A stretch of DNA of 64,000 nucleotides from Anaerolineae bacterium (GCA_023382715.1 JAHDWP010000007.1:1-64000); one strand, 5' to 3'; shown: positions 23,348 through 39,573, counted from the first letter of the stretch. The notes: generated from the letters alone by a model not told the origin. Program-made: numbers and translations.

Positions 23348-24733
23348 TTGAACAGCCGGCCTGATCGCTCGCTGTGGGCGGGCGCTGCCCAGGTGCTCAC
23401 CGGGCGGACGACCAAAGCGCGTCTGATTCGCGGCACGGGCGGCACATTCGTGCTGCGCCTGGGCAACATGGCCCTCAAGTTCGCCATCAGCCTGGCGCTG
23501 GCGCGGCTGCTCGGCGCGGGGCATTACGGCGTGTTCAATTTTGCCCAGGCGTGGATTCTGCTGCTGATCATCCCCGCGACCGCCGGCTTCGACCGCCTGC
23601 TCATCCGCGATCTCTCGACTTATCTGATGGAAGGCGCATGGCCGGCCATGCGCGGCCTGCTGCGCTTCGCGACGCGCTGGGCGCTGATTCTCTCGGCGGG
23701 GCTGATCGCGCTGGGCCTGGCGGCGGCGTGGCTCACCTACACGCTGACCGGGCGGCCAGCCCTGCTCAACGCTGAGCAGGCGGGCCTGGCGCGCGCCGCG
23801 CTGGTCACGCTGGCGGTTGCCCTGCTCGTGCTGCCACCCCGCGCCCTGACGCTCATCCAGCAGTCGGCCATGCAGGGGCTGCGCCATGTCGTGCTGGGTC
23901 AGGTGCCCGACCAGGTGCTTCAGCCGGCGCTGTTTCTGGCGGCGCTGGGCATCACCGTCCTTGTCGGGCGAGCGGTCGCCTCCGCTCAGGCGGCGATGGC
24001 CCTGTTCGTGGTGACCACGCTGCTCGCGCTGGCGTTCAGCATGTGGCGGCTGCGCGAAGCGCTGCCCTCGGCGGTGCGCGCTGCCACCCCCGTCAGCGAG
24101 GGGCGGGCCTGGCTGACCAGCGCCGTCCCCTTCGCCCTGACGCAGGGCCTGATCGTGCTCAACGTGCAGGTGGACTCGCTGATGCTCGGCGCGCTGGACA
24201 GCGCCGAAGCGGTCGCCTACTACACCGTGACACAGCGCCTGACCACGCTGATCACGCTGCCGCTGATCTCGGTCGGCGTGGCCCTGGCTCCGCACATCGC
24301 CAGCCTGCACGCGGCGGGCCAGCGCCGCGAGTTGCAGCGCGCGGTGACGGGCAGCACACGGCTGGCGCTCGGCACGGCGCTGCCGATCACGCTGCTATAT
24401 ATCGTCGCCGGGACGTTCTTCCTGGGGCTGTTCGGGGCGGAGTACCGCGTCGCGCAGACGGCGCTGGCCCTCTTCAGCCTGGGCCAGCTTGTCAATGCGG
24501 CGACCGGGCCGGTCGGCCCGCTGCTGCTGATGACCGGGCACGAGCGCGCAGCCACCCTGACGACCGGGCTGGGCGTGGCGCTGCACATCGTCCTCAACGC
24601 GCTGCTCATCCCGCTGTGGAGCATTGAGGGCGCGGCGGCGGCGGGGGGGATCAGCATCGCCGCCGTCAACCTGACGCTGGCCGCGCTCGCCTGGCGGCGG
24701 CTGCGCATCAACACGCTGCCGGTTGGGGAGTAG
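23348..24733 (+). CDS. Oligosaccharide flippase family protein (Wzx-like)
   Basis: The 461-residue protein is highly hydrophobic with about 12-14 predicted membrane segments and resembles the polysaccharide biosynthesis/MVF flippases that move lipid-linked sugars across the membrane. N-terminal features are GTGGTFVLRLGNMALKFAISLALARLLGAGHYGVFNFA. The C-terminal half contains EYRVAQTALALFSLGQLVNAATGP, also typical. The start is uncertain: TTG at 23348 is used for want of an in-frame ATG before residue 41. Its substrate is unknown, but the polysaccharide operon at 34-39.6 kb could supply one. Confidence 0.8.
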   Translation: MNSRPDRSLWAGAAQVLTGRTTKARLIRGTGGTFVLRLGNMALKFAISLALARLLGAGHYGVFNFAQAWILLLIIPATAGFDRLLIRDLSTYLMEGAWPAMRGLLRFATRWALILSAGLIALGLAAAWLTYTLTGRPALLNAEQAGLARAALVTLAVALLVLPPRALTLIQQSAMQGLRHVVLGQVPDQVLQPALFLAALGITVLVGRAVASAQAAMALFVVTTLLALAFSMWRLREALPSAVRAATPVSEGRAWLTSAVPFALTQGLIVLNVQVDSLMLGALDSAEAVAYYTVTQRLTTLITLPLISVGVALAPHIASLHAAGQRRELQRAVTGSTRLALGTALPITLLYIVAGTFFLGLFGAEYRVAQTALALFSLGQLVNAATGPVGPLLLMTGHERAATLTTGLGVALHIVLNALLIPLWSIEGAAAAGGISIAAVNLTLAALAWRRLRINTLPVGE

Positions 24734-25148
24734 AGCGCGCTTCCCTCAACCCTCGGCTCCTTCTCCCGTGGTGCGGGCGAAAGGGAACGCTCCTGCGAGG
24801 GAAAACAGGTTCTCTCACCCCGCGCGCGAGGAGATTGAGGGGTGGGGGGAGAAGCCTTTTCGCATGGGCTGACAGTGAACTGTTGTGAAATCTGCTCATC
24901 GCGGATCGCAGCCAGTTCTGGCTTGCGCTCGCGAATTTGTGCTATACTGCGAGGCGTCATCGAAAAAATTACATTTTGCGCTGATTTTTCTGCTTTTTCT
25001 CGTCCTGCAGGGGTGCCAAAGTGCTGTAACATGGCACCTATAGACTTTTGCCTTCGGCGATTCGGATCGCTGAGTCTCGCCCGGTCGCGGGAGAAGGCCA
25101 TCGCCCGGCGGGCGGTTTGCAGGGGTTTAGCCTCCGGCGAGGACCAAA
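24734..25148. other. Gene-free leader region of the RiPP cassette
   Basis: A GGGAGAAGG-type hairpin repeat covers about 24745-24845. An AT-richer stretch follows, with a -10-like TATACT at 24943-24948 (no good -35). The last 120 bases are rich in small hairpins (CGATTCGGATCG; CCTCCGGCGAGG), the last of which includes the GAGG that probably acts as ribosome site for the first PqqD-like gene. This looks like a structured 5' leader; I recognise no riboswitch class. Confidence 0.4.
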
Positions 25149-25418
25149 ATGCGTTATTTGCAGAATCCTGATATTGTGGTGCGCGAAGAGCCGGGCGAGG
25201 TGTGGCTTTTCTTCGACCCGGACACGAACCAGAGGCGCTACTCCAACGCCGTAGGCGCCAGCGTGTGGGAGCTGTGTGACGGCACGCGCGACCTGGCCCA
25301 GATCGTCGTCGAAGTCTGCGCCGCGTTCGAAGGCGCGCCCTCCGATCAGGTCGGCGCCGACGTGCGCGAGCTTCTGCAAAACATGGAAGCCGATCACTTC
25401 ATCGTCCGGGCCGATTAG
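25149..25418 (+). CDS. PqqD-like RiPP recognition protein (first copy)
   Basis: PqqD-like proteins bind the leader of a precursor peptide and present it to modifying enzymes. This 89-residue protein fits the family: a short beta hairpin (VWLFFDPDTNQRRYSNAVGASVWELCDG), then helices with DLAQIVVEVCAAFEG and a final LLQNMEADHFIV. It is the first gene of the cassette and is followed 22 bases later by a radical SAM gene. The position and size match ScmD of the SynChlorMet cassette as I recall it. Confidence 0.82.
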   Translation: MRYLQNPDIVVREEPGEVWLFFDPDTNQRRYSNAVGASVWELCDGTRDLAQIVVEVCAAFEGAPSDQVGADVRELLQNMEADHFIVRAD

Positions 25419-25440
25419 CGCCGAACTGAAAGGGGGACAC

Positions 25441-26550
25441 ATGGCTGGCTCATCGCTCACACCTACCCCGCACAGCATAGATATTTCGCTCACCGGGCGC
25501 TGCAACCTCAAGTGTACCTACTGTTTTTATGCCAACGAGATGACCGCCCTGACGGACCTGCCCACCGATAAGTGGCTGGCCTGTTTTGAGGAGCTGGGGC
25601 GGCTCAATACCATGGAAGTCACGCTGTCGGGCGGCGAAGCCTTCACCCGGCGTGACCTGTTCGAGCTGATTGACGGCGTGATCGCCAACCGGATGCGCTA
25701 CAGTCTCCTCAGCAATGGCACGCTGATCACCGACCAGGTGCTCGCCCGCTTCGACGAAGGCAAGCGCCGCCAGCGCCTCAACTCCATTCAGATCTCCATT
25801 GACGGGTCGCGCGCCGAGATTCACGACGCCAGCCGGCCCAAGAGCTTCTCCCGCGCCGTGCGCGGCCTGCGCCTGCTGAAGGAAGCGGGCTTCCCTGTCA
25901 CTGTGCGCGTGACCATCACCAAGCACAACCTGCACGACCTGGAAAACATCGCCGCGCTGCTGCTGGAGGACATCGGCCTGCCCTCCTTCAGCACCAACGA
26001 CGCCATCCCCATGGGGTCGGGCTGCCAGAACGAGGCGGAGGTCGCGCTTGACTCGCACGAGCAGTACGAAGCCATGCAGATCGTGGGCCGGCTGCTGGAG
26101 CGTTATCCGGGGCGGCTCAACGCCCAGGCCGGGCCGCAGGCCAAAATCCAGATGTACGCCGAGATGGAGCACGCCCGGCGCACCGGCGAAAAGACCACGC
26201 GCTGGGGCATGGGCCGCCTGACCGCCTGCGGCTGCACCTTCTCCAAGCTGGCCATCCTGCACGACGGCACGATCGTGCCCTGCAACATGCTCACCGAGCG
26301 GCTGGGCAACATCACCACCGACTCAGTCCACGAGATCTGGCATACGCACCCCGTGCTGACTGCCATGCGCCAGCGGCGCTTCATCCCCATGCAGGACGTG
26401 CTCGGCTGCGCGGACTGCGAATGGGCGCCCTACTGCAACGGAAGCTGCCCGGCGCTGCCTTACACACTTTATGGCGACTTCAACCGCGCCAACCCGCACG
26501 ACTGCTATCGTCGCTTCCTCCAGGAGGTTGGTCATGGCGTCTCTGCCTGA
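25441..26550 (+). CDS. Radical SAM/SPASM enzyme, ScmE-like
   Basis: The 369-residue enzyme starts at ATG 25441 after AAAGGGGG. The radical SAM cluster motif is CNLKCTYC (Cys21, 25, 28), which binds the [4Fe-4S] cluster that cleaves SAM. LSGGEAFTR and SIDGSRAEIHD are conserved core motifs. The C-terminal third is a SPASM domain with CGCTFSKLAILHDGTIVPCNM and CADCEWAPYCNGSCP, giving ligands for auxiliary clusters. Such enzymes install crosslinks or other changes in RiPP peptides. The segment RMRYSLLSNGTLITDQ and the gene order recall ScmE of the SynChlorMet cassette. It overlaps the next gene by 17 bases. Confidence 0.82.
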   Translation: MAGSSLTPTPHSIDISLTGRCNLKCTYCFYANEMTALTDLPTDKWLACFEELGRLNTMEVTLSGGEAFTRRDLFELIDGVIANRMRYSLLSNGTLITDQVLARFDEGKRRQRLNSIQISIDGSRAEIHDASRPKSFSRAVRGLRLLKEAGFPVTVRVTITKHNLHDLENIAALLLEDIGLPSFSTNDAIPMGSGCQNEAEVALDSHEQYEAMQIVGRLLERYPGRLNAQAGPQAKIQMYAEMEHARRTGEKTTRWGMGRLTACGCTFSKLAILHDGTIVPCNMLTERLGNITTDSVHEIWHTHPVLTAMRQRRFIPMQDVLGCADCEWAPYCNGSCPALPYTLYGDFNRANPHDCYRRFLQEVGHGVSA

Positions 26551-27619
26551 TGGCGTCCCGCCGCTGCGCGAGATTTACCTGTACATCACCGGCTCGTGCA
26601 ATCTCAACTGCCGCCACTGCTGGATTGACCCGGTCTTCAGCGGTCGGATCGAAAAGTACCTGCCCTGGGCCGACCTGAAAGGGATCATCGAGCAGGCGCA
26701 GGAGATCGGCCTCAGCGCGGTCAAGATCACCGGCGGCGAGCCATTCCTGCACCCGGAAATGGTCGAGATCCTCTACGCGCTGCGCGGGATGGGCCTGAAC
26801 CTGCGTATGGAGACCAACGGCACGCTGATCGGCCCGCGCGAGGCCAGGGCGCTCAAGGAGAACAACGTCACGTTCTCGCTCTCCCTTGACGGGCCGAACC
26901 CGCTGCTGCACGACGACCTGCGCGGCGTGAAAGGGTCGTTCAAGCGCACGCTGAAGGGCATCGAGCACCTGCGCGCCGAGGGGCTGAGCTTCCAGGTGAT
27001 CATGAGCGTGCACCGCGGCAACGTGCACGGCCTGCCGATCACGCTGGAGCTGGCCCACGACCTGGGCGCGAACAGCCTGAAGGTCAACCCGATCACCCTC
27101 TCCGGGCGCGCCGACGCCATGCAGCAGAACGGCGAGCTGCTCACCGTCGCCGAGACGCTCGACGCCTACCACGCGCTGATGGAGCACCCGCTGGCCCAGA
27201 ACGGCTTCCCGGTCCATTTCGACATCCCGCCGGCCTTCCAGCCGATGAAGAAGGTTGGCGAGCGGGGCTTCGGCACGTGCGGGATACACGGCATTCTCGG
27301 TGTGCTGCACGACGGGCGCAGCGGGCTGTGCGGCATCGGCGAGCACGTCAAGGACCTGGACTTCGGCAGCCTGCTGGAGCCGGGATCGGTGCGCCGCGTG
27401 TGGGAGCAGAACGCCACCCTGCAGGCGATCCGCGAGAACGTGCCGCGCCATATGAAGGGCATCTGCGGGCGCTGCATGTTCCGCAACTACTGCCTGGGCA
27501 AGTGCATCGCCAACACGTTCACCATCACCGGCGACCTGTTCGAGGGCTTCCCCTTCTGCGAGCAGGCTTACGCGGAGGGGCTGTTCCCGGAGAGCCGGCT
27601 GGTGGCGTTCAAGGGATAG
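26534..27619 (+). CDS. Radical SAM/SPASM enzyme, ScmF-like
   Basis: The 361-residue enzyme starts inside the preceding gene, with AGGAGG at 26521-26526. The SAM cluster motif is CNLNCRHC (Cys22, 26, 29), followed by a WIDP tetrapeptide that I associate with ScmF proteins. KITGGEPFLHPEM is the conserved GGE motif. The C-terminal SPASM-type region has CGIHGILGVLHDGRSGLCGIG and CGRCMFRNYCLGKC. Two different radical SAM enzymes in tandem imply two modification steps or a two-enzyme complex. The product is unknown. Confidence 0.82.
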   Translation: MASLPDGVPPLREIYLYITGSCNLNCRHCWIDPVFSGRIEKYLPWADLKGIIEQAQEIGLSAVKITGGEPFLHPEMVEILYALRGMGLNLRMETNGTLIGPREARALKENNVTFSLSLDGPNPLLHDDLRGVKGSFKRTLKGIEHLRAEGLSFQVIMSVHRGNVHGLPITLELAHDLGANSLKVNPITLSGRADAMQQNGELLTVAETLDAYHALMEHPLAQNGFPVHFDIPPAFQPMKKVGERGFGTCGIHGILGVLHDGRSGLCGIGEHVKDLDFGSLLEPGSVRRVWEQNATLQAIRENVPRHMKGICGRCMFRNYCLGKCIANTFTITGDLFEGFPFCEQAYAEGLFPESRLVAFKG

Positions 27620-27705
27620 CTGTCAGCTATCAGTCAACAGCTATCAGCAGATAAAAATGAGTCGTGTTTGTGCAGCGGGCTTAACGCTGAGAGGGTATAT
27701 GGTAA

Positions 27706-27812
27706 GCCCCCTCATCCCCGGCCCCTTCTCCCTCGCAAGCAGGGAGAAGGGGGGCAAATCGCCGGTTTTCCCCTCGCCCCACTGAGGGAGAGGGGTGCAG
27801 GGGTGAGGGAGT
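27706..27812. repeat. GGGAGAAGGGG hairpin repeat inside the RiPP cassette
   Basis: CCCCTTCTCCCTCGC and GCAGGGAGAAGGGG form a long hairpin, flanked by further CCCTCGCCCC/GGGAGAGGGG blocks. The same family is repeated at 28494-28592 and, degenerate, at 29363-29470. It separates the radical SAM genes from the peptidase gene. Confidence 0.55.
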
Positions 27813-27856
27813 TCCCTACACGCTCTGAAAGCTGACCGCTGAGGGCTGAAAGCTCT

Positions 27857-28423
27857 ATGACGATCACCCGCTTCATCGTGCGCGGGCACAGCATGAGGCC
27901 CGCCTTTCGCCAGGGCGACGTGCTGGCCCTGGCCCCCGCCCCGCCGGACAGCCTCCGCCGCGGCCAGGTGATCGTCTTCCGTGTGCCGGATCGCGACCCC
28001 GGCGACTGGGTGGTGCACCGTGTGATCCACGTCGCGGGGAGCGGGGCAGCCCGGCAGATCGTCACGCGCGGCGACAACGCCCCGCGCAGCGACGGGGCCG
28101 TGCCGCCGCAGTGGATCGTCGGGCGGGTGACCGGGCGCTGCCGGGGCGAGCGGGTGCTCCCGCTGCGCCGTGCCGAAGAGGTGTTCTGGCTGTTCGCCGC
28201 GCGCCCTGTCCGGCGGCTGCGGCGGTGGCGCTACCGCCTGCTGGCCTGGCTGATCCCGTCTCTGCTGGCGCTGGGGCTGGGTCGGCTGCTGCACGTGCGG
28301 CGGGTACGCCTGGGCGAGCGCGAGCTGTCGGTGCTGTGGGGGCGGGTGATCGCCGTGCGCCAGCAGACGCCCGACGGCGTGCGCGGCTGGGTGCACCCGT
28401 TCTTTCGCGGGCGGGAGTTGTGA
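27857..28423 (+). CDS. S24/S26-type signal-peptidase-like serine protease
   Basis: The 188-residue protein begins with the S26 core: GHSMRPAFRQGDVLAL, with Ser12 as nucleophile. The second motif is WVVHRVI (His54) instead of the Lys-containing motif of standard bacterial leader peptidases, and RGDNAPRSD (71-79) follows. A Ser-His pair is typical of the archaeal/ER-like S26B group. A hydrophobic stretch near 125-140 may sit in the membrane. Its place in the cassette suggests that it removes the leader from the modified peptide, which is inference. Confidence 0.75.
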   Translation: MTITRFIVRGHSMRPAFRQGDVLALAPAPPDSLRRGQVIVFRVPDRDPGDWVVHRVIHVAGSGAARQIVTRGDNAPRSDGAVPPQWIVGRVTGRCRGERVLPLRRAEEVFWLFAARPVRRLRRWRYRLLAWLIPSLLALGLGRLLHVRRVRLGERELSVLWGRVIAVRQQTPDGVRGWVHPFFRGREL

Positions 28424-28724
28424 GAGAGTGGTCAGTGATCAGTGACCAGTTTTCAGTGAGAGGCTGTTTGAAAGGCTGCGTCTGCCTTTGACCCCCCATC
28501 CCCGGCCCTTCCCCCACGAGGGGGGAAGGGAGAAAAGCGCGCCCGCTAAGCCCCTCCCTCCTGGTGGGGGAGGGGTTTGGGGTGGGGGGAGACAACTTCT
28601 CAAATGATCTCTGGGCGGGAATGAGGTCAACTGAAAACCGATCACCGAACGCGGATCGCGGTGGCGCATGGTGGATTTTCAAATTCGCAATTCGCAATCC
28701 CAAATTCGCAATCAAGGAGCGCGT
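28424..28724. repeat. Gene-free stretch with repeats
   Basis: It contains a short TGATCAGTGACCAG tract (28430-28455) and a CCCCTCCCTCC/GGGGGAAGGG hairpin repeat (28494-28592). An AT-rich run of ATTCGCAATCC words (28679-28713) precedes AAGGAG, the ribosome site of the next gene. Confidence 0.55.
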
Positions 28725-28997
28725 ATGACTGCACTACCCATCGCCAACCCGGAGCTGGTCTTCCGCTCCGACGGGGAAGAAGGGTTGCTCTTCGACCCGG
28801 AGACCGGGCAGATCATCTACCTGAACGAGACGGCGGCCTTCATTTACGGGCTGCTGGACGGGGAGCACAGCCGCGAGCAGATTATTGGCTTGCTCATGCA
28901 GAAATATGATATACTGGATCGCGAGGCGGCCCAGGACGACCTGGACGCCATGCTCCAGAACATGCGCGAAGCGAACCTGATCGGGGAGACGGCCTGA
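28725..28997 (+). CDS. PqqD-like RiPP recognition protein (second copy)
   Basis: The 90-residue protein has the same beta-hairpin plus helix pattern as the first PqqD-like protein: EEGLLFDPETGQIIYLNETAAFIYGLLDG followed by HSREQIIGLLMQKYDI and a final helix with DLDAMLQNMREANLI. ATG 28725 has AAGGAG eight bases before. It ends 40 bases before the candidate precursor. Two leader-binding proteins in one cassette may serve the two radical SAM enzymes or two processing stages. Confidence 0.82.
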   Translation: MTALPIANPELVFRSDGEEGLLFDPETGQIIYLNETAAFIYGLLDGEHSREQIIGLLMQKYDILDREAAQDDLDAMLQNMREANLIGETA

Positions 28998-29037
28998 GCG
29001 GGCCGGCCTTGTGATAGTAGGGGGAGGAGCGGACACG

Positions 29038-29319
29038 ATGACTAAGCGGACCTATGTGAAACCCGAGTGGCACGCGATGGGGATGCCGATTGCCGCGGCG
29101 GCGTGCCAGAGGGGATTCGAGGATGTGGGGACGATGGGGTATTGCCAACCTGGAGGTATTGCTGCTGGAGCTTGTAATGGAGGATCGGGTGTCTTTGGCA
29201 CAGCTTGCACGGACGGTGGGGCGGTAACGGATCCTGGTGGTGCCTTCTATTGTTACACTGGGGGAAGCCCGAAAGACGTGAGCAATAACTGTACGACTGG
29301 TGGTGTAGCCGTCGGATAG
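29038..29319 (+). CDS. Candidate RiPP precursor peptide (Gly-rich, six Cys)
   Basis: This 93-residue peptide has a strong ribosome site (GGGGGAGGAG). The N-terminal part (MTKRTYVKPEWHAMGMPIAA) looks like a leader of the Y-x-K-P-E type that PqqD-like domains bind. The rest is a low-complexity core rich in Gly, Ala, Thr and Ser, with six Cys at 23, 36, 46, 57, 72 and 85 spaced 10-15 residues apart. Many Cys are followed by T, N or Q and a Gly pair. It lies just after the second PqqD-like gene and before the HprK-like gene, the usual place for a precursor. Sulfur-to-carbon links by the SPASM enzymes are one possibility. No homologue is recognised. Confidence 0.7.
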   Translation: MTKRTYVKPEWHAMGMPIAAAACQRGFEDVGTMGYCQPGGIAAGACNGGSGVFGTACTDGGAVTDPGGAFYCYTGGSPKDVSNNCTTGGVAVG

Positions 29320-29507
29320 TAAGAGATCATTGGGGAACTTGTGCGCCTGCCCTTGTCTCCCACCGCTAGCCCTTCCCCCACGAGGGGGAAGGGCGAAAAG
29401 TGCATACGCCAGGTCTCTTCTGCCTTGTGAAGGAAAGGTTTCGGGAGGGAGAACGATTTCTCAAAAGCCCTCTGATTTCTGGTGATAGGTTCTTGTGATT
29501 AGCTGCC

Positions 29508-30395
29508 ATGTCCTTTGTTAACCTCCAGTACCAAATCGGTCATACAGCAATAGAAATAATCACCACGGGTGTTTCTCATTATCATCCCAACCACGTATTT
29601 AACGACGATCTTTCAAGTAAATTTTTGAAAAATACTATCGACATCGATTATACAGTTACTCTCGAAATTCATGCTCTGCCTGTTGATTTTGGAATAGACT
29701 TGGAGAAACTTATATTATGCCATAATTTAGACGATGGCCGCTGGATATATTTATCATTTGATAAATGGATTGCCCTTTTTAATGAGCAGGAATCGCGATT
29801 TGTTCTCTTCTTAAGAAATTTTCGTGTCTTCTCTGAGGCGTATAAGAGTACATTATCATTTCTTTTTAAATACTTTACCAAAGATATTGGGACCTTCTTC
29901 CATAGTGCGGGGATACAGATCGCAGATCACAACTATATTTTTCTAGCCCCCAGTGGTACAGGGAAGACGACTTTATCCCTACGCGCGCAGAAGGGCGGGC
30001 TTCCGGTTCTTTCCGACGAGATGGTTTTTGTCTCAAAGAATGGGGGTTGTTTTGTGGCCTATTCCTCTCCATTTGGGCGCATAACTGACGGTCCGCTGGA
30101 AGCTCCGTTAGGTGGCATCTTCTTTCTCAAGCAGGGGACAGCAGCCAGGTTCTCGCGTATCAATTCTTCACAGGCCCTCGCGCGAGCGTGGCAAGATAGT
30201 TATTACCGGGACACGGTTCTTGATTTCTCCGACCAAAAACTGCGCTTCAAGAATCGTATTGTAACGCCGGCAGAACGGCTTAAAATCTTCGATCTCTGGC
30301 ATGAACTTTTCTCAACCGTCCCGTGTTTTGAGATGGAATTCCCCATTGATTTCGACGATTGGCACAAGCTGGCTGAGCTTGTCGAGAACGCTTGA
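29508..30395 (+). CDS. HprK-like P-loop protein of RiPP cassettes (possible ScmC-like)
   Basis: The 295-residue protein resembles HPr kinase-like proteins found in many RiPP clusters. The P-loop is APSGTGKTT (147-155), preceded by FFHSAGI (130-136) and followed by VLSDEMVFV (167-175), matching the HprK core without the N-terminal domain of true HprK. Its role in RiPP pathways is unproven; phosphorylation of the peptide is one idea. The gene is strikingly AT-rich (the line 29581-29640 has 19 G/C in 60) against high-GC surroundings, and its codons differ accordingly, so recent transfer is likely. Confidence 0.78.
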   Translation: MSFVNLQYQIGHTAIEIITTGVSHYHPNHVFNDDLSSKFLKNTIDIDYTVTLEIHALPVDFGIDLEKLILCHNLDDGRWIYLSFDKWIALFNEQESRFVLFLRNFRVFSEAYKSTLSFLFKYFTKDIGTFFHSAGIQIADHNYIFLAPSGTGKTTLSLRAQKGGLPVLSDEMVFVSKNGGCFVAYSSPFGRITDGPLEAPLGGIFFLKQGTAARFSRINSSQALARAWQDSYYRDTVLDFSDQKLRFKNRIVTPAERLKIFDLWHELFSTVPCFEMEFPIDFDDWHKLAELVENA

Positions 30396-30398
30396 TTT

Positions 30399-31580
30399 GT
30401 GAACCACCAACAGCAGTCCCTTCTCGCAGCCTGTTTAATCAACGAACAGAGATACGAAGAAGAGTCTCCCGTAGCTCCTCTAGAAGCGCTGATTAGTACG
30501 GCCATTCGGTATAACCTCGCCCCGCTGCTCCTCTGGACGCTCAAGGGGCGCGCCGAACCCCTCGACCCGGCCCTGGCCGCGCAGCTTGGCCCCCTGCAGG
30601 CGCAGGCTCGCCAGGTCGCCGCGCGCTACGTCCACCTCAAGGCCGCGCGGGCGCACGTGGACGCGACGCTGGCCGCCGCCGGCATCCCCGCCCTGTGGCT
30701 GAAGGGCGCGGCCCTGGCCGAGACGGTCTACCCGCAGCCCGTCCTGCGCCCGATGGGCGACCTCGACGTGCTGGTGCCCTTCGCGCGGCGCGCCGAGGCC
30801 CTGGCCGCGCTCAAGGCAGCGGGCTGCGCTGACGAGCCGCGCGGTCCACTCGCCGCGCAGGTGGCCCCTTTCCTGCCGCCGGACGAGACGCACCACCATT
30901 ACAACCTGGTCAGCGGGCCGGGCGGCGTGCGCGTGGAGCTGCATTTCCGCGTGGCGCGGGCGATCCTGCCCGACCTGGCCGCGCTCGACTGGTTCTGGTC
31001 GCAGACGATGGAGGCGGCGGATCGGGCGGGCAGGCTGCTCGGCTTCCGCACGCTGCGGCCAGAGGCGCACCTGCTCTACCTGTGCGCGCATGCCCTGCTG
31101 CAGCACGGAGAGGCGCAGATTGGCCTGCTGCACTTCTACGACCTGCACCTGCTGGCCACCGTCTACGACCTGGACTGGACGCTGATCGTCGAGCGGGCGG
31201 TGGCGCTGCGCTGGACGTACCCGGTTGAGCGGGCGCTGACGCTGACGGCGGAGTACTTCAGCACGCCGGTGCCCGCCTGGGTGCCGGAGCAGTTGCGGGC
31301 GCGCCGGCCCGCCGGTGAGGACGTGGGCATCGTCGAGCAGATCGGCGCGGGCGATACACGCTGGGCGCAGACGGTGCGCGGGCTGCGCCGCCTGACACCG
31401 CGCCAGCGGGTCGCGCTGGTGTGGCGGATCGTTTTTCCGCCGCGCGCTTACCTGCGCATGCGCTACCGGGTGCGGCCCGGCGTGCCGCTGCTGCTCTACT
31501 ACCCGTACCGCTGGTGGGATCAGGCGCGGGGCGTCGGGCGGGGAGTGCGGCGCTGGGCAGCGCTGCGGGCGAGGAAGTAG
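30399..31580 (+). CDS. Nucleotidyltransferase-fold protein (NTP_transf_5 type)
   Basis: The GTG start lies three bases after the HprK-like stop. The 393-residue protein has the signature IPALWLKGAALAETVYPQPVLRPMGDLDVLVP (96-127), with the G-D-L-D acidic pair at 121 and 123, and ETHHHYNLVSGPGGVRVELHFRV later. This family often accompanies HprK-like and PqqD-like genes in RiPP clusters; its activity is not established. The first 40 codons are of low or mixed GC, like the upstream gene, while from about 30520 the gene takes on the high-GC style of the chromosome. Confidence 0.8.
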   Translation: MNHQQQSLLAACLINEQRYEEESPVAPLEALISTAIRYNLAPLLLWTLKGRAEPLDPALAAQLGPLQAQARQVAARYVHLKAARAHVDATLAAAGIPALWLKGAALAETVYPQPVLRPMGDLDVLVPFARRAEALAALKAAGCADEPRGPLAAQVAPFLPPDETHHHYNLVSGPGGVRVELHFRVARAILPDLAALDWFWSQTMEAADRAGRLLGFRTLRPEAHLLYLCAHALLQHGEAQIGLLHFYDLHLLATVYDLDWTLIVERAVALRWTYPVERALTLTAEYFSTPVPAWVPEQLRARRPAGEDVGIVEQIGAGDTRWAQTVRGLRRLTPRQRVALVWRIVFPPRAYLRMRYRVRPGVPLLLYYPYRWWDQARGVGRGVRRWAALRARK

Positions 31581-31927: not shown

Positions 31928-32443
31928 GTGAGCACTGCATCCTGGTACGTCATTCACAGCAAGCCCCGCAAAGAGAACCAGGTCAACGCCTATTTGCGGG
32001 CGCAGGGCCTGGAGACGTTCTACCCCACGCTGCACGTGCAGCCGGTCAATCCGCGCGCGTCCAGGATCCGCCCCTACTTCCCGCGCTACCTGTTTGTGCA
32101 CGCCGACCTGGACGCAGTGGGCGTTTCGGTGTTACAGTGGGTGCCGGGGGCGATCGGGCTGGTGTCGTTTGGTGGGCAGCCCGTGCCGGTGCCCGCGCAC
32201 GCCGTGCACGAGCTGAAGCGCCGCGTCGCCGAGATTCGCGCGGCGGGCGGGCTGGTGCTCGACGGGTTGCAGCCGGGTGACGCGGTGCGCATCACGCAGG
32301 GGCCGTTCGCCGGCTACGAGGCGATCTTCGATGCGCGGCTCAGCGGGGCGGAGCGGGTGCAGGTGCTGCTGACGATGCTGGGCCGGCTGGTGAAGGTGCA
32401 GGTTAACGCGGGGGCGATTGAGAAGCGGCGCGGGCGCGGGTAG
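31928..32443 (+). CDS. NusG-family transcription antitermination paralogue (RfaH/LoaP type)
   Basis: The 171-residue protein starts at GTG with GGAGG upstream. The NGN domain opens with WYVIHSKPRKENQVNAYLRAQGLETFYP and contains RPYFPRYLFVHADL; a KOW segment follows (GDAVRITQGPFAGYEAIFDA). The ending is short and basic. Specialised paralogues of this kind help polymerase read long biosynthetic operons and usually sit at the operon start. Here it is the last gene of the + strand block, with a convergent gene downstream, so its target is unclear. Confidence 0.85.
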   Translation: MSTASWYVIHSKPRKENQVNAYLRAQGLETFYPTLHVQPVNPRASRIRPYFPRYLFVHADLDAVGVSVLQWVPGAIGLVSFGGQPVPVPAHAVHELKRRVAEIRAAGGLVLDGLQPGDAVRITQGPFAGYEAIFDARLSGAERVQVLLTMLGRLVKVQVNAGAIEKRRGRG

Positions 32444-32613: not shown

Positions 32614-33864
32614 TCACGCAGTGGGCGAAGACGCGCGCGGGGCAGGGGTCGTCAGCGGCAGCCAGCGCCCCACCACGAAAGCCATCACCAGGAAGATGAG
32701 ACCCCCACTGATGTAGATGCTGCGCAGGCCGAAGACCATGGCCAGCCCCGCGCCGATCATCGGCGCGGCGGCGCGCCCGGCGGAGATGATCGCCGCTTCC
32801 AACCCGTAGACGGACCCTTCTTCGCCCGGATCGGTGTGCGTGGCCAGCAACGCGCTGAGCGTGGGCAGAAGTCCGCCCGCCGCCGCGCCTGTGGCCGTGA
32901 AGAGGATGGCCATCTGCCAGACGGACGTGACCAGCCCTAGCGGGATGTAGAACAGCCCGGCGATGATGGCGATGGTGACCAGGAGACGGCGGTGACCCAG
33001 ACGGTCGCCAAGCTGCCCCAGGTAGATCGCCCCGATGGTGCCTGCCGCCCCGGAAAGCGCCAGCAGTGCCCCGGTGATAGTCGCCGTCTGACCTTCGTCC
33101 CCCAGCAGCTCCAGGACGAACAGCGCGGTGAATGGCTCGATCATCGAGCGGGACAGCGTGGTCAGAAGGCGCGCCAGGAAAGTCAACCGCACTGCCTGCA
33201 CGCTGAGCACGTGCGCCCAGGCTGCCAGGAAGCTGTGGTGCCCATCCGCAGAGCGTGGAACCGGCTCGAAATGCTCGTGAACGCCCCACGAAGCCAGCCC
33301 GCCGGCCAGGGCCAGTAGCGCAGCGGTGGCGACGAACGACGTGCGGAAGCTGAAGGTATCGGCCACGTACCCGCCGAATAGCGGCCCCGCCGAGACGCCG
33401 CCCCACAGCCCGACCTGCAGCAGGCCGAGCGCATAGCCCATCCGCTCGCGCGGGACGCTGGCCGCGACCAGCGCGGTCAGCGCGGAGAACACCCCCGTGA
33501 CCAGCCCCTGAACGGTGCGCAGGACGACCAACTGTTCCGCCGAGGTGACGAAGCCCATCAGCAAAATGACGAGCGCGCCGCCCCAGGTTGCGCGCAGCAC
33601 CATCATCTTGCGCCCGTGCCGGTCGGCCAGCGCACCCCAGACGGGCGCGGCGATCATCATGGCGAAGGCCTGCGCCGAGAAAACGAGACCGGCCATCAGC
33701 TCGATGTTCAGGCCGGTGGTGGAGCCTAATTCCTCCACGTAGAGCGGCAGGAAGGTAAAGATGCTCGACATGCCGACCGCGGAGACGAATTGCACGAACG
33801 CCAGGACATACAGCGTGCGCTTCCAGGCGTGTTGGTCGTCCATGATCTCCTCAGACTCGCGCAT
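32614..33864 (-). CDS. Major facilitator superfamily transporter
   Basis: The 416-residue protein has about 12 membrane helices. The MFS signature between helices 2 and 3 is seen as GALADRHGRKMMVLRATWGGA. The start at 33864 has GAGGG upstream; a second ATG at 33843 is also possible. The second half repeats the pattern with GQLGDRLGHRRLLVTIAII. It resembles drug-efflux members, but the substrate cannot be told. It is transcribed away from the polysaccharide operon and separated from it by a MITE-like element. Confidence 0.88.
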   Translation of the reverse strand: MRESEEIMDDQHAWKRTLYVLAFVQFVSAVGMSSIFTFLPLYVEELGSTTGLNIELMAGLVFSAQAFAMMIAAPVWGALADRHGRKMMVLRATWGGALVILLMGFVTSAEQLVVLRTVQGLVTGVFSALTALVAASVPRERMGYALGLLQVGLWGGVSAGPLFGGYVADTFSFRTSFVATAALLALAGGLASWGVHEHFEPVPRSADGHHSFLAAWAHVLSVQAVRLTFLARLLTTLSRSMIEPFTALFVLELLGDEGQTATITGALLALSGAAGTIGAIYLGQLGDRLGHRRLLVTIAIIAGLFYIPLGLVTSVWQMAILFTATGAAAGGLLPTLSALLATHTDPGEEGSVYGLEAAIISAGRAAAPMIGAGLAMVFGLRSIYISGGLIFLVMAFVVGRWLPLTTPAPRASSPTA

Positions 33865-35278: not shown

Positions 35279-36178
35279 TCAGCGCAGCGCGGTTTCCGGC
35301 TCGGCGACGTTCGCCGGCGGCGCGGGCAGCGGCGTGGCGATGACCGTCTTGGCGAGGATGCCCAGGACCAGCTCGGTCGCCACCCACGCAAAGCGATGCA
35401 CTGCCGCGTAGACCAGGGCGTCGGGCGCGGCCAGCAGCGGGACGAGCAGCGCGGTCATGACCGTCTCGCGCACGCCGATTCCGCCCGGCGCGAACACGGC
35501 CACGTAGCCGATCACCCAACTGAGACAGAACGCGCCCAACGCCAGCGCGCCGGATCGCCACCCGCTGACGGCGGGTAGGATGATCCACAGGCTGATCCCC
35601 ACCAGCGCCCAGATCGCCGCCTGAAGCATCAGCCCGCCCAGGGCTGCCCGCCAGCTTCGCTCCCCGCCGAAGCGCAGCCGGATCAGCCACAGCAGCGCCC
35701 ACCACACCGCGATCAGCCCGGCGACGGCAATCCCCGCCCGCGCGCCAGGCAGATAATAGGCGAGAGTCCCGATTAGCCCGGTCAGCGATGCCGAGAGCAC
35801 CAGCCACAGGTTTTCGATGACCATGGCTCGCGTCACGGCGCGCAGCGGCAGACCGTCGGCGTGGTAGAAGCCCGCTCGCCCCACGAAATGCCAGATGCCG
35901 CCCGGCAGATACTTGGCGAGCTGGCTCAGCGTAAACATGGGGAACATACGCCGGTAGCCGATGCGGTGCCCGGCCAGGTTCACCGATCGCTGGGCCATGA
36001 GGATCAGCAGCAGCTTGGAAGCGAACAGGCAGGCGACGGCCAACGCCAGCCGCACCGGAGAGATGGTGCGCAGTTGCGGGCCGATCTCGCCCCAGTGTGT
36101 CCACAGGTAGCGGACGACTGCCCCCGCCACCAGGACGAGCCACAGCCACTTAACGAGGCGCATCAGGCGGGCGGTCAC
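35279..36178 (-). CDS. Second LPG-synthase-TM-like membrane protein
   Basis: The GTG start overlaps the stop of the pyruvyltransferase-like gene as GTGA, so translation is coupled. The 299-residue protein shows LAKYLPGGIWHFVGRAGFYH and YVAVFAPGGIGVRETVMTALL, both typical of the same fold as the next gene, and about eight membrane segments. Two such proteins in tandem may form a pair or act on different lipids. The substrate is unknown. Confidence 0.76.
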   Translation of the reverse strand: MTARLMRLVKWLWLVLVAGAVVRYLWTHWGEIGPQLRTISPVRLALAVACLFASKLLLILMAQRSVNLAGHRIGYRRMFPMFTLSQLAKYLPGGIWHFVGRAGFYHADGLPLRAVTRAMVIENLWLVLSASLTGLIGTLAYYLPGARAGIAVAGLIAVWWALLWLIRLRFGGERSWRAALGGLMLQAAIWALVGISLWIILPAVSGWRSGALALGAFCLSWVIGYVAVFAPGGIGVRETVMTALLVPLLAAPDALVYAAVHRFAWVATELVLGILAKTVIATPLPAPPANVAEPETALR

Positions 36179-37449
36179 GTGAGCAGCGCGTCCAGGCTGG
36201 TGAATTGAGTCGCCGCCGATGCCTGTGCCGGTTTCAGCGCCGCCGCGATCTGCGCGCTGAGCGCGGCGCGTTCGTCCAGCAGGGCGCGCACCAGGGCGGG
36301 GATGTCGGCGAGCGGGTCGGCGAAGTCCACCGCGAAGCGCTCGATGCCGAACTCGGCCAGCACTTCGGCGTATTTGTGGCTCCAGCCGATGACCACTGGC
36401 GGGACGCCCAGCGCCAGTGCCGAGATCATGGCGTGGAAGCGCGAGGTCAGCACGGCGTCGCACCGGGCGAACAAGCGGCGACTGCCCGCCGTGTTGAGGT
36501 CATAGTCCACCACGTCCACTGTCACGCCGAGCGCACCGGGCAGATCGCGGGCCAGGCGCTCGCGCAGGGCGGCGATGGCCGGCAGGTCGTTGTTGGCCGA
36601 AGACTCCGATCCCTGACGGGTGGCGTTGGGCACGACGACGAAATGGACGTCCGGCCCGCCCAGATCGCGCACCAGCCGGGCGAAGACGCCCGGATAGTCG
36701 CCGCCCTCTTCGGCGGTCTTGTTATGGACGAGCGAGCTGGGGATCAGCCCGATGATCGTCTGGCCCGCCGCGCGCAGCCCTGCCAGCTTGGCCGCCAGGG
36801 CGTCTACGCGGTCTTCGTTCTCAGCGGTCAGGCTGTATTCCGGTTGGTACAGAAAGGCGATGTCGGCGGCCTGCTCCCACTTGCTGGCGGGCAGGCGCAG
36901 GTCGCGCAGATGCTCAGCAGTCACCGCCCCGCGCGCGTAGATGCGTCGGCAGCGCGGCAGGAACAGGCGCGCGCTCAGGCGGGTCAGCGGATTCTTGAAC
37001 GGGCCGAGCGCCTGGGCCAGCTTGATCACCGGCACGCCGAGCAGCATGGCCGGCCAGATAAGCAGGATGTTGAAGGGCAGGAACTTCTCGCGCCCGTCGG
37101 CGAAGGAGATGCCGCTGACGTCCAGCAGGGCGTCGCAGCGGCGCAGCGCGCGGGCCGGGTGTGGCAGCAGGCGGTCGGGCCAGCGCAGCCGCAGCAGCCC
37201 GGCCAGCCAGATCAGCACGGCGAAGGGGAAGGTGCGCAGCACCAGGTCTTTGGGCCGCGCGCCGATGACGGTGATCCGCGAATCGCGCACCAGGGCGCGA
37301 TCGCGCCTGGGGAAGTAGGAGAAGAGGATGATCCGCGCGTCTGGGCGGCGGGCGCGCACCTGGCCAATGGTTGTGACGAGCATGGCCTCGGCCCCGCGAT
37401 TGCCCCACAGAGTCGCGCCGGTGATGGCGATAGTCGGTTCGCTGCCCAC
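36175..37449 (-). CDS. Polysaccharide pyruvyl transferase family protein
   Basis: The 424-residue protein opens with TGATLWGNRGAEAMLVTTI, the typical start of the pyruvyltransferase fold (PF04230), and has KLAQALGPFKNP and the late motif CDAVLTSRFHAMISALALGVPPVVIGWSHKY. Family members add ketal pyruvate to surface sugars or, in other branches, act as glycosyl- or related transferases. It follows the FrhB-like gene after one base. This fits capsule or cell-wall polymer decoration. Confidence 0.85.
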   Translation of the reverse strand: MGSEPTIAITGATLWGNRGAEAMLVTTIGQVRARRPDARIILFSYFPRRDRALVRDSRITVIGARPKDLVLRTFPFAVLIWLAGLLRLRWPDRLLPHPARALRRCDALLDVSGISFADGREKFLPFNILLIWPAMLLGVPVIKLAQALGPFKNPLTRLSARLFLPRCRRIYARGAVTAEHLRDLRLPASKWEQAADIAFLYQPEYSLTAENEDRVDALAAKLAGLRAAGQTIIGLIPSSLVHNKTAEEGGDYPGVFARLVRDLGGPDVHFVVVPNATRQGSESSANNDLPAIAALRERLARDLPGALGVTVDVVDYDLNTAGSRRLFARCDAVLTSRFHAMISALALGVPPVVIGWSHKYAEVLAEFGIERFAVDFADPLADIPALVRALLDERAALSAQIAAALKPAQASAATQFTSLDALLT

Positions 37450-37450
37450 G

Positions 37451-38554
37451 CTACAGGCTCTCCAGCCCTTTCAGCAGATAGAGGTAGAGACGGATCACCG
37501 GGCGCGGCGCGCGCAGGATGACCGCCCGCCCGATGCGCGTGCGCGACACGCGCTCGTTGAGCAGGGCGATGAAGGCGATGGCGTAATCCACCGGGCGCAC
37601 GCGGGCATCGTTGCGAGCCTTGATGCGCACGCCGAGGAACCGCCCCACGCGCGCCCGCGCGTTGACGCTGTAGTGGAAGGGAGCTGTGCGCGCCTGGCCG
37701 TTGGCGATTTCGTCCACCGGCTCCTCGCTGCCGATCAGCACTCCGTCGCGCAGCGCTGCCGCGATCAGCGCGCTGCCGGCAGGCGTGCGCGCGATGAGCG
37801 CCGTGTGCTTGATCGGGTTAGCCTTCATGCGCGGCGACCAGATGTCTCCGGCGGAGATGTCGCAGTGATAGCCGAAATGGTCGAAGCAGTGGTGACACTT
37901 GGGCTGAGCGAAGAAGTACAGATTGCGGTAGTCGGAGAAGGTCTCGAACGGCTTGACGACCTGCGCTCCGTCGGCAAAGGTGGCTTCCAGGCTGCCACGC
38001 CAGTGGCCGATGCGCCAGTGGTAGCCGGTCAGCGGACCATGCCCCTGGCCCAGCCTATCCACAATGGCGTCGGTGAGGGCTGGCTCGGAGTTGTGCCCGC
38101 AGAACAGGGTGATCACCAGGGCGATCCGGGCGTCGAGCGCCGCGCTTCTGGCTCGCGCACGCTGGAGGATGGTCGCGTCGCAGGGCAGGGCGACGACTGC
38201 CAGCCGCCCGTCGAAGGCTTCGATCAGCGGCAGGGCGTCGTTGGCGAAGTAGACCGCCGCGTATTTGCTGCCCTGGGCGACCATGATCTCCTCGCGGGTG
38301 CGGGCGATGATGAACTCCGGGCGCGGTTTGGCGGCGCGCAGGGCCGTCCGGCAGACCAGCGCGCCGCCAATCTGCCCGCTCTCCAGGAGGTAAATCAGCA
38401 GTGCTGAGACGCTCCCGCCAGAAGCGGCGTTGGCGTGCACAGCATCATCGGCGGCGTAGGTGAAATAACACTGCTCGAACTCGCCCACGTAGCGCCGCAA
38501 CTGGTCGGGCGTGAAATTCTTGTGCCAGAGGGCCTGGCGGAGGCGCTTGATCAC
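37451..38554 (-). CDS. FrhB/FdhB-like (coenzyme F420 hydrogenase beta) family protein in sugar operon
   Basis: The GTG start overlaps the stop of the glycosyltransferase gene (GTGA). The 367-residue protein has the YFTYAADDAVHANAASGGSVSALLIYLLE N-terminus and the PCDATILQRAR segment of the FrhB_FdhB family. It also carries CGHNSEPALTD and CHHCFDHFGYHCDISAGDIW, giving Cys ligands for an iron-sulfur cluster. FrhB-like proteins in polysaccharide operons are flavin/Fe-S oxidoreductases of unclear role, often next to pyruvyltransferase-like genes as here. Confidence 0.82.
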   Translation of the reverse strand: MIKRLRQALWHKNFTPDQLRRYVGEFEQCYFTYAADDAVHANAASGGSVSALLIYLLESGQIGGALVCRTALRAAKPRPEFIIARTREEIMVAQGSKYAAVYFANDALPLIEAFDGRLAVVALPCDATILQRARARSAALDARIALVITLFCGHNSEPALTDAIVDRLGQGHGPLTGYHWRIGHWRGSLEATFADGAQVVKPFETFSDYRNLYFFAQPKCHHCFDHFGYHCDISAGDIWSPRMKANPIKHTALIARTPAGSALIAAALRDGVLIGSEEPVDEIANGQARTAPFHYSVNARARVGRFLGVRIKARNDARVRPVDYAIAFIALLNERVSRTRIGRAVILRAPRPVIRLYLYLLKGLESL

Positions 38555-39573
38555 GGCTCGCCACCACTCCTCTCCATTGCCACGTCTGCGCTGGCCTGCG
38601 CGCGCTCTGCATCGGGCGCGCGCAGCACCGCCCGCGTGATGCGCAGCGGGTCTTCTTCGCGCTGCACGACCGAGACGACCAGTTCGGCCAGCAGGCCGAT
38701 GGTGCCCAACTGCACGCCCATCACCATGAGCAGCACGCCCAGCGTGAGCAGCGGGCGCTGGCTGAGCGGGCGCATCCCCTGGAACCATTCGATGGACAGG
38801 TAGGCGTTGACCAGGAAGCCAGCCAGCAGCAGCAACAGCCCCGCCCCGCCAAAGAGGTGCAGCGGACGGTAGCGAAAGTTGTTCAGAAAGAGCACGGTCA
38901 GCAGGTCCAGCCCGCCGCGCAACAGGCGGCCCGGCCCGTACTTGGAGCGCCCGAAGCGCCGTTTGTGGTGCACGACGGGCAGCTCGGTCACGCGGAAGCC
39001 GTTGTAGTGGGCCAGGATGGGGATATAGCGGTGCAGGTCTCCATAGAGGCGCAACTCGCGCACGGCCTCGGCGCGGTAAGCCTTCAGCCCGCAGTTCATA
39101 TCGTGCAGGCGCAGACCGGTCACCCAGGCGGTGACGTGGTTGGCGATCCACGACGGGATGCGCTTGGAGAGCGGGTCCTGGCGCTGGAACTTCCAGCCGC
39201 TCACCACGTCGTAGCCTTCATCCAGCCTGGCCAGCAGGTTGGGGATTTCCGCCGGATCATCCTGCAGATCGGCGTCCATGGTGATGAGGATCGCGCCACG
39301 CGCCAGGGCGAAGCCGGTGTTGAGGGCCAGGCTCTTGCCGGAATTGCGCCGCTGCTCGGCCACCACGACGTGAGCATCCGCCGCCTGCAAGGCGCGCAGT
39401 GCGTCGCGCGTGCCGTCGGTGCTGCCATCGTCCACATAGACGACTTCCCAGGTCACGCCTAGCGACTCCACCACAGCGCGAATCCGCTCGTGCAACAGCG
39501 GCACGCTTTCGGCTTCGTTGTAGGCGGGCACGACGATGGACAGGTCGAGCGATCTGGCGGGCGGGTGCTCCAT
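38551..39573 (-). CDS. Family 2 glycosyltransferase, dolichol-phosphate-mannose-synthase-like
   Basis: The 340-residue protein heads the envelope operon. The GT-A domain shows LSIVVPAYNEAESVPLL, VYVDDGSTDGT and ITMDADLQDDP (the metal-binding DxD), then HKRRFGRSKYG. Two membrane helices at the C-terminus (about 235-310) place it with the DPM1/ArnC group, which load sugars onto polyprenyl phosphate. Its product could feed transferases or the flippase-like proteins of the same operon. Confidence 0.9.
   Translation of the reverse strand: MEHPPARSLDLSIVVPAYNEAESVPLLHERIRAVVESLGVTWEVVYVDDGSTDGTRDALRALQAADAHVVVAEQRRNSGKSLALNTGFALARGAILITMDADLQDDPAEIPNLLARLDEGYDVVSGWKFQRQDPLSKRIPSWIANHVTAWVTGLRLHDMNCGLKAYRAEAVRELRLYGDLHRYIPILAHYNGFRVTELPVVHHKRRFGRSKYGPGRLLRGGLDLLTVLFLNNFRYRPLHLFGGAGLLLLLAGFLVNAYLSIEWFQGMRPLSQRPLLTLGVLLMVMGVQLGTIGLLAELVVSVVQREEDPLRITRAVLRAPDAERAQASADVAMERSGGEP

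Follow-up and report, generated by a model that had tools for sequence, protein, structure and literature searches.

The eight genes between 25149 and 31580 are best read as a RiPP pathway of the SynChlorMet kind, acting on the small Cys-repeat peptide encoded in their midst. We put the probability of this reading at about 0.82, a figure that excludes the type of bond formed. The set is a divergent and nearly complete variant of the SynChlorMet (Scm) cassette, a cassette named in HMM libraries; the papers we searched contained no work on it, on its enzymes or on its product. Gene content, conservation of the cassette, the peptide family with its repeat pattern, and co-occurrence with ScmE were all computed here, starting from one 64 kb stretch of DNA, called the window throughout. 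All eight plus-strand ORFs of the kinds described in the initial annotation are present (Table 1), and the ScmF start at 26534 overlaps the end of ScmE. Related GC-rich intergenic repeats of the CCCCATCCCCGGCCCTTCCCCC type lie among the cassette genes (24743-24766, 27708-27731, 28492-28529 and 29359-29393).

Table 1. Features of the Scm-type cassette in the window; L followed by a number denotes a locus used for comparison.
Feature	Coordinates	Strand	Evidence
PqqD1, PqqD-like peptide chaperone adjoining ScmE	25149..25418	+	PF05402 48 bits; best relatives are PqqD genes of the L043 and L017 cassettes
ScmE radical SAM/SPASM enzyme	25441..26550	+	TIGR04250 407.4 bits, cut-off 400; nearest relative L017, ~70%
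ScmF-like radical SAM/SPASM enzyme	26534..27619	+	TIGR04251 341.9 bits, cut-off 400; nearest relative L035, 59%
S26 signal-peptidase-like protease (Ser/His type), candidate leader peptidase	27857..28423	+	TIGR02228 64.8 bits, cut-off 51.85
PqqD2, PqqD-like peptide chaperone, probably for ScmF	28725..28997	+	PF05402 65 bits; position as in L035
ScmA-type precursor, 93 aa	29038..29319	+	leave-one-out profile E 4.6e-9; 41% identical to L035 precursor
HprK/PEPCK-fold kinase-like protein, ScmC position	29508..30395	+	weak sequence match; AlphaFold model; Walker A APSGTGKT
NTP_transf_5 nucleotidyltransferase-like protein (ntp5)	30399..31580	+	PF14907 E 1e-39; in 32/84 loci
Low-GC tract: precursor core, HprK-like gene and first 40 ntp5 codons	29143..30518	.	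lowest 900-bp GC of window

The proteins were scanned with NCBIfam and Pfam models and judged against the curated cut-offs. Among the Scm models only that of ScmE is passed, and the set is therefore classed as a variant, short of full SynChlorMet membership. For ScmF, TIGR04251 is the best family by a wide distance from the next one at 149 bits, and its cut-off is missed in 9 of the 14 genomes tested, the window's genome included. Scanning with TIGR04248 to TIGR04251 had been proposed as a check, and here only TIGR04250 passes: the ScmD model TIGR04248 gives the two PqqD proteins 38 and 45 bits where its cut-off requires 100, and the ScmC model TIGR04249 gives the HprK-like protein 18 bits where 125 are required. 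The PqqD model proposed alongside gives a clear answer, with both proteins passing PF05402. The SPASM model gives a divided one. Pfam reports radical SAM twice, PqqD twice, NTP_transf_5, and SPASM in ScmE; ScmF stays under the SPASM threshold yet carries the full Cys set, with an N-terminal CxxxCxxC and, towards the C-terminus, C-x11-G-x4-C, CxxCx5CxxxC and a final C. In sequence, CxxxCxxC together with the seven-Cys SPASM pattern is found in both enzymes. The PapB maturase model NF047865 (cut-off 340) gives them 78 and 69 bits. The HprK-like protein matches TIGR04352 weakly (E 2e-4), and its AlphaFold model (pLDDT 80) has a PEPCK/HprK fold, with PEPCK and then HprK as top PDB matches. The S26 protein is the sole protease among the cassette genes. 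Elsewhere in the genome the other radical SAM matches that were followed up are an ordinary anaerobic sulfatase maturase and MoaA (G000:C62:203-1498 and G000:C48:581-1630).

The second-best family of both SPASM enzymes is the heme b synthase AhbD (136 bits for ScmE, 149 bits for ScmF). This match could point to enzymes that work on a non-peptide substrate, with heme-like chemistry as in AhbD/NirJ, the peptide beside them being a structural or metal-binding protein. We regard this as very improbable, since scores are far above those of AhbD with the models of ScmE (407 bits) and ScmF (342 bits) and since, across phyla, the enzymes are found together with PqqD proteins and with a repeat peptide that bears a leader.

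The peptide of the window is not a chance ORF. A leave-one-out profile of 54 positions, built from 59 precursors of other Scm cassettes with that of the window excluded, ranks it first among 1236 window ORFs, the next ORF having an E of 0.068, and its score is reached by 0 of 2000 shuffles. It belongs to the wider group of ScmE/ScmF-linked CxxG-repeat precursors, defined here by a profile match beside ScmE and ScmF. The most probable start codon is the ATG at 29038, which an AGGAG site precedes by eight bases. The leader extends from Met1 to about residue 35 and contains YVKP, and the core carries the CxxG repeats CQPG, CNGG, CTDG, CYTG and CTTG; six CxxG are counted (shuffle p 1.5e-4). AlphaFold yields no confident model of the precursor fold: confidence is restricted to the first ten residues (86), and the remainder is disordered. 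The peptide had been taken as new. Its kind, however, already has a name, ScmA (NCBIfam TIGR04252), though this model gives the window peptide only 10 bits against a cut-off of 35.

In more than 45 loci from many phyla, ScmE/ScmF are adjoined by short ORFs that combine a leader containing [YW]xxP with several copies of CxxG. This recurrence upholds the RiPP reading of the initial annotation, and the peptide is not missing from related cassettes. We curated 60 precursors, with lengths of 53-140 residues (median 81) and 3-14 Cys. Their cores are built from repeats of about ten residues, CxxG[GST]x[AP]. Over the 336 core Cys of these precursors the commonest spacing is 10 (113 cases), followed by 11 (66); position +3 after the Cys is Gly in 82% compared to a background of 20%, position +4 is G/S/T in 65% and position +6 is A/P in 58%. 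Some cassettes hold two or three precursors. A 6.5 kb contig of a same-class genome encodes four CxxG-repeat precursors in tandem (L126:3915-6384, G162:C94), and no cassette enzyme was found on that contig. TIGR04252 matches 10 of the 60 curated precursors at E <0.1, and its cut-off is passed in none of the 36 cassette-bearing genomes tested. Among 298 genomes, the precursor profile and ScmE are each positive in ten and share nine (Fisher p 2e-15). The recall is in part built in, since the profile was made from sequences that include most of the precursors in these genomes; only the specificity, the near absence in ScmE-negative genomes, is independent. This analysis adds a broader precursor family characterised by its repeat unit, a gene layout that recurs among the cassettes, the finding that the curated ScmA model fails, and a composition shift shared by precursor and kinase genes. 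Spanning bacteria and archaea and recognisable by its repeat and its leader motif, the family supplies definite peptides on which two SPASM enzyme families, both uncharacterised, can be studied, and the product of an uncharacterised cassette becomes testable through precursors that the existing reference model misses.

ScmE homologs are found in 10 of 298 same-class genomes, the window's own among the ten, and are absent from all 20 same-order genomes listed; plasmid records gave no ScmE match. Named genomes contribute 74 ScmE loci. Besides that of the window there are 83 loci, three of which duplicate loci of the class search, and their sources include Chloroflexota, Aminicenantes, Fermentibacterota, Thermodesulfobacteriota, Myxococcota, Nitrospirota, Chlorobiota, WOR-3 and methanogens. 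The ScmE tree mixes phyla, with 30 label changes against a minimum of 14, while clustering is still better than shuffled; from this tree, horizontal spread of the cassette by transfer is likely. Parts were mapped on 84 loci, a set in which the window, many short or truncated contigs and duplicates are included. HprK-like genes occur in 57 of these, S26 genes in 43 and NTP_transf_5 genes in 32, so the three are recurrent members of the cassette and not oddities of the window. One further gene forms a 38-locus cluster, the ABC exporter, and the usual order is PqqD-ScmE-ScmF-peptide-HprK-S26-ABC-NTP5. In Fermentibacteria-type loci a protein with two 4Fe-4S ferredoxin-like motifs is encoded just upstream of ScmE (L037:3854-4390, L040:8069-8662, L088:5933-6460); it is a possible electron donor.

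The lack of an obvious exporter beside the cassette, pointed out initially, is confirmed: a cassette-type ABC exporter is absent there, and the 3.88 Mb assembly holds no clear ortholog elsewhere, its best full-length match being a generic ABC exporter at 34%. The suggested substitute, the MFS gene at 32614-33864, does not hold up, being MdtG-like, on the opposite strand and not among the genes conserved with the cassette. The neighbourhood also contains polysaccharide-type genes, namely a flippase, an RfaH-like NusG protein, a pyruvyl transferase and a glycosyltransferase (23348-24733, 31928-32443, 36175-37449 and 38551-39573). A link to exopolysaccharide was considered and is not claimed, because any one glycosyltransferase family is matched by only about 4 of 147 sampled flank proteins.

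The cassette of the window looks like a mosaic. Its ScmE is closest to L017, while its ScmF is closest to L035 (next relative ~44%), and L035 also matches the window in S26 and in the order ScmF-S26-PqqD2-peptide-HprK. Nowhere in the 64 kb is GC lower than within the low-GC tract, at 0.433 over 900 bases compared to a mean of 0.671 (sd 0.045). On the right the tract ends abruptly within ntp5, at about codon 40, where GC3 rises from 21/40 to roughly 10 in every 10 codons. On the left, GC3 is 28/35 in leader codons 1-35 of the precursor and 23/58 in the remainder (p 2e-4), a contrast sought after the fact, which makes this edge less sure. The missing ABC exporter and a tract that cuts into the precursor and ntp5 genes could together be taken for a decaying remnant that lost its exporter, had its core replaced by foreign DNA and makes no product. 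This is unlikely, as all eight frames are open, the cluster Cys and Walker motifs are intact, a ribosome site precedes the peptide and the core keeps its repeat pattern.

That the lowest-GC tract takes in the core of the precursor together with the kinase gene and the beginning of ntp5 suggests an exchanged cargo segment. The composition of other high-GC cassettes bears on this point. There, precursor GC3 differs from that of ScmE by a median of -0.19 (15 of 21 below -0.15) and HprK GC3 by a median of -0.09 (6 of 25 below -0.15); the two shifts correlate (rho 0.56, p 0.013), and ScmF, S26 and NTP5 are little shifted. Precursor, HprK, S26 and NTP5 genes also diverge faster than ScmE and ScmF. 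The low GC of core and kinase gene may therefore reflect relaxed codon selection on fast-evolving genes rather than exchange, given that most high-GC cassettes have a higher AT content in the precursor and HprK genes than in ScmE and that leader and core are alike in general, with no GC break between them across loci (p 0.58). We hold this for a serious alternative, though the less probable one: the tract edges fall inside ntp5 and inside the precursor gene, which selection on whole genes does not predict. The linked shift of precursor and kinase would fit a cargo that is swapped within a conserved modification scaffold. A bolder extension, which we offer as speculation and consider rather improbable as a whole, is a RiPP class with multiple cores: every ten-residue CxxG repeat would be crosslinked by two dedicated PqqD/SPASM pairs, phosphorylation and further decoration would follow, and core and kinase gene would travel together as a module exchanged by recombination between leader and core.

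For the pathway itself we infer the pairing of enzymes and substrate, the order of steps, cleavage, phosphorylation and export from the genes. The precursor would be held by the PqqD proteins through its short [YW]xxP leader, as PqqD holds PqqA (PMC8326336). Probably one PqqD serves each radical SAM/SPASM enzyme, which is the simplest reading because in five loci (L077, L079, L084, L090 and L093) ScmF lies on the opposite strand with a PqqD of its own. ScmE and ScmF would next act on the core. Its CxxG repeats are most plausibly the site of modification, by analogy with known radical SAM enzymes that join Cys to a residue three or four positions away, as in the Cys-X3-Asp thioether of freyrasin (PMC9413430) and the thioethers of NxxC peptides (PMC8326336). 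Gly is among the acceptors in sactipeptides (PMC8326336). A Cys-to-Gly thioether, or another crosslink with loss of two hydrogens at CxxG, is our tentative guess for the product and may well be wrong.

The S26 protease is the likely leader peptidase. No cleavage motif is tied to the presence of S26 among the 60 precursors; an AxA site before the core, considered as its signal, occurs in 8 of 37 with S26 and 9 of 23 without (p 0.24) and shows no association. Precursors at L077:11919-12329, L079:10533-11006, L084:3796-5116 and L093:10612-11549 carry an AYAQ/AHAQ-like stretch ahead of the core, in loci where no S26 gene was found; they are perhaps cleaved by general signal peptidase. The HprK-like protein would probably add a phosphate and the NTP_transf_5 protein then a further group, as on some lasso peptides, where an HprK homolog and a nucleotidyltransferase occur together (PMC8498205). 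Only 3 of the 60 precursors have Ser at the C-terminal end, so the target of the kinase must differ from the known lasso target. The mature product would be exported, by the ABC protein in many sister cassettes and by another carrier here.

Compared to SynChlorMet as modelled (TIGR04248-TIGR04252, ScmA and ScmC-ScmF), the window shares an ScmE that passes, ScmF as best family, and PqqD, HprK/PEPCK-like protein and Cys-repeat precursor in one neighbourhood. It differs in ScmA, ScmC, ScmD and ScmF proteins below the curated cut-offs, in an extra PqqD and in the absent ABC exporter. Ranthipeptides (freyrasin with PapB; NxxC peptides) also have a SPASM radical SAM enzyme adjoining a precursor with a short repeated Cys motif. 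In contrast to their CxxxD, the motif of the window is CxxG with a period of about ten, there are two SPASM enzymes and separate PqqD proteins, the enzymes are not of the PapB family, and crosslinking is only a putative chemistry. Phosphorylated lasso peptides (paeninodin, pseudomycoidin) have in common with the window an HprK homolog and a nucleotidyltransferase gene beside a PqqD-like protein, but no lasso cyclase or B2 protease is seen among the window cassette genes, and Scm precursors are of the Cys-repeat type, few of them ending in Ser. The PQQ pathway (PqqD/PqqE/PqqA) likewise combines a free PqqD with a SPASM enzyme acting on a small precursor. The Scm precursor differs in being fast-varying and multi-repeat, as would be expected of a natural product more than of a fixed cofactor.
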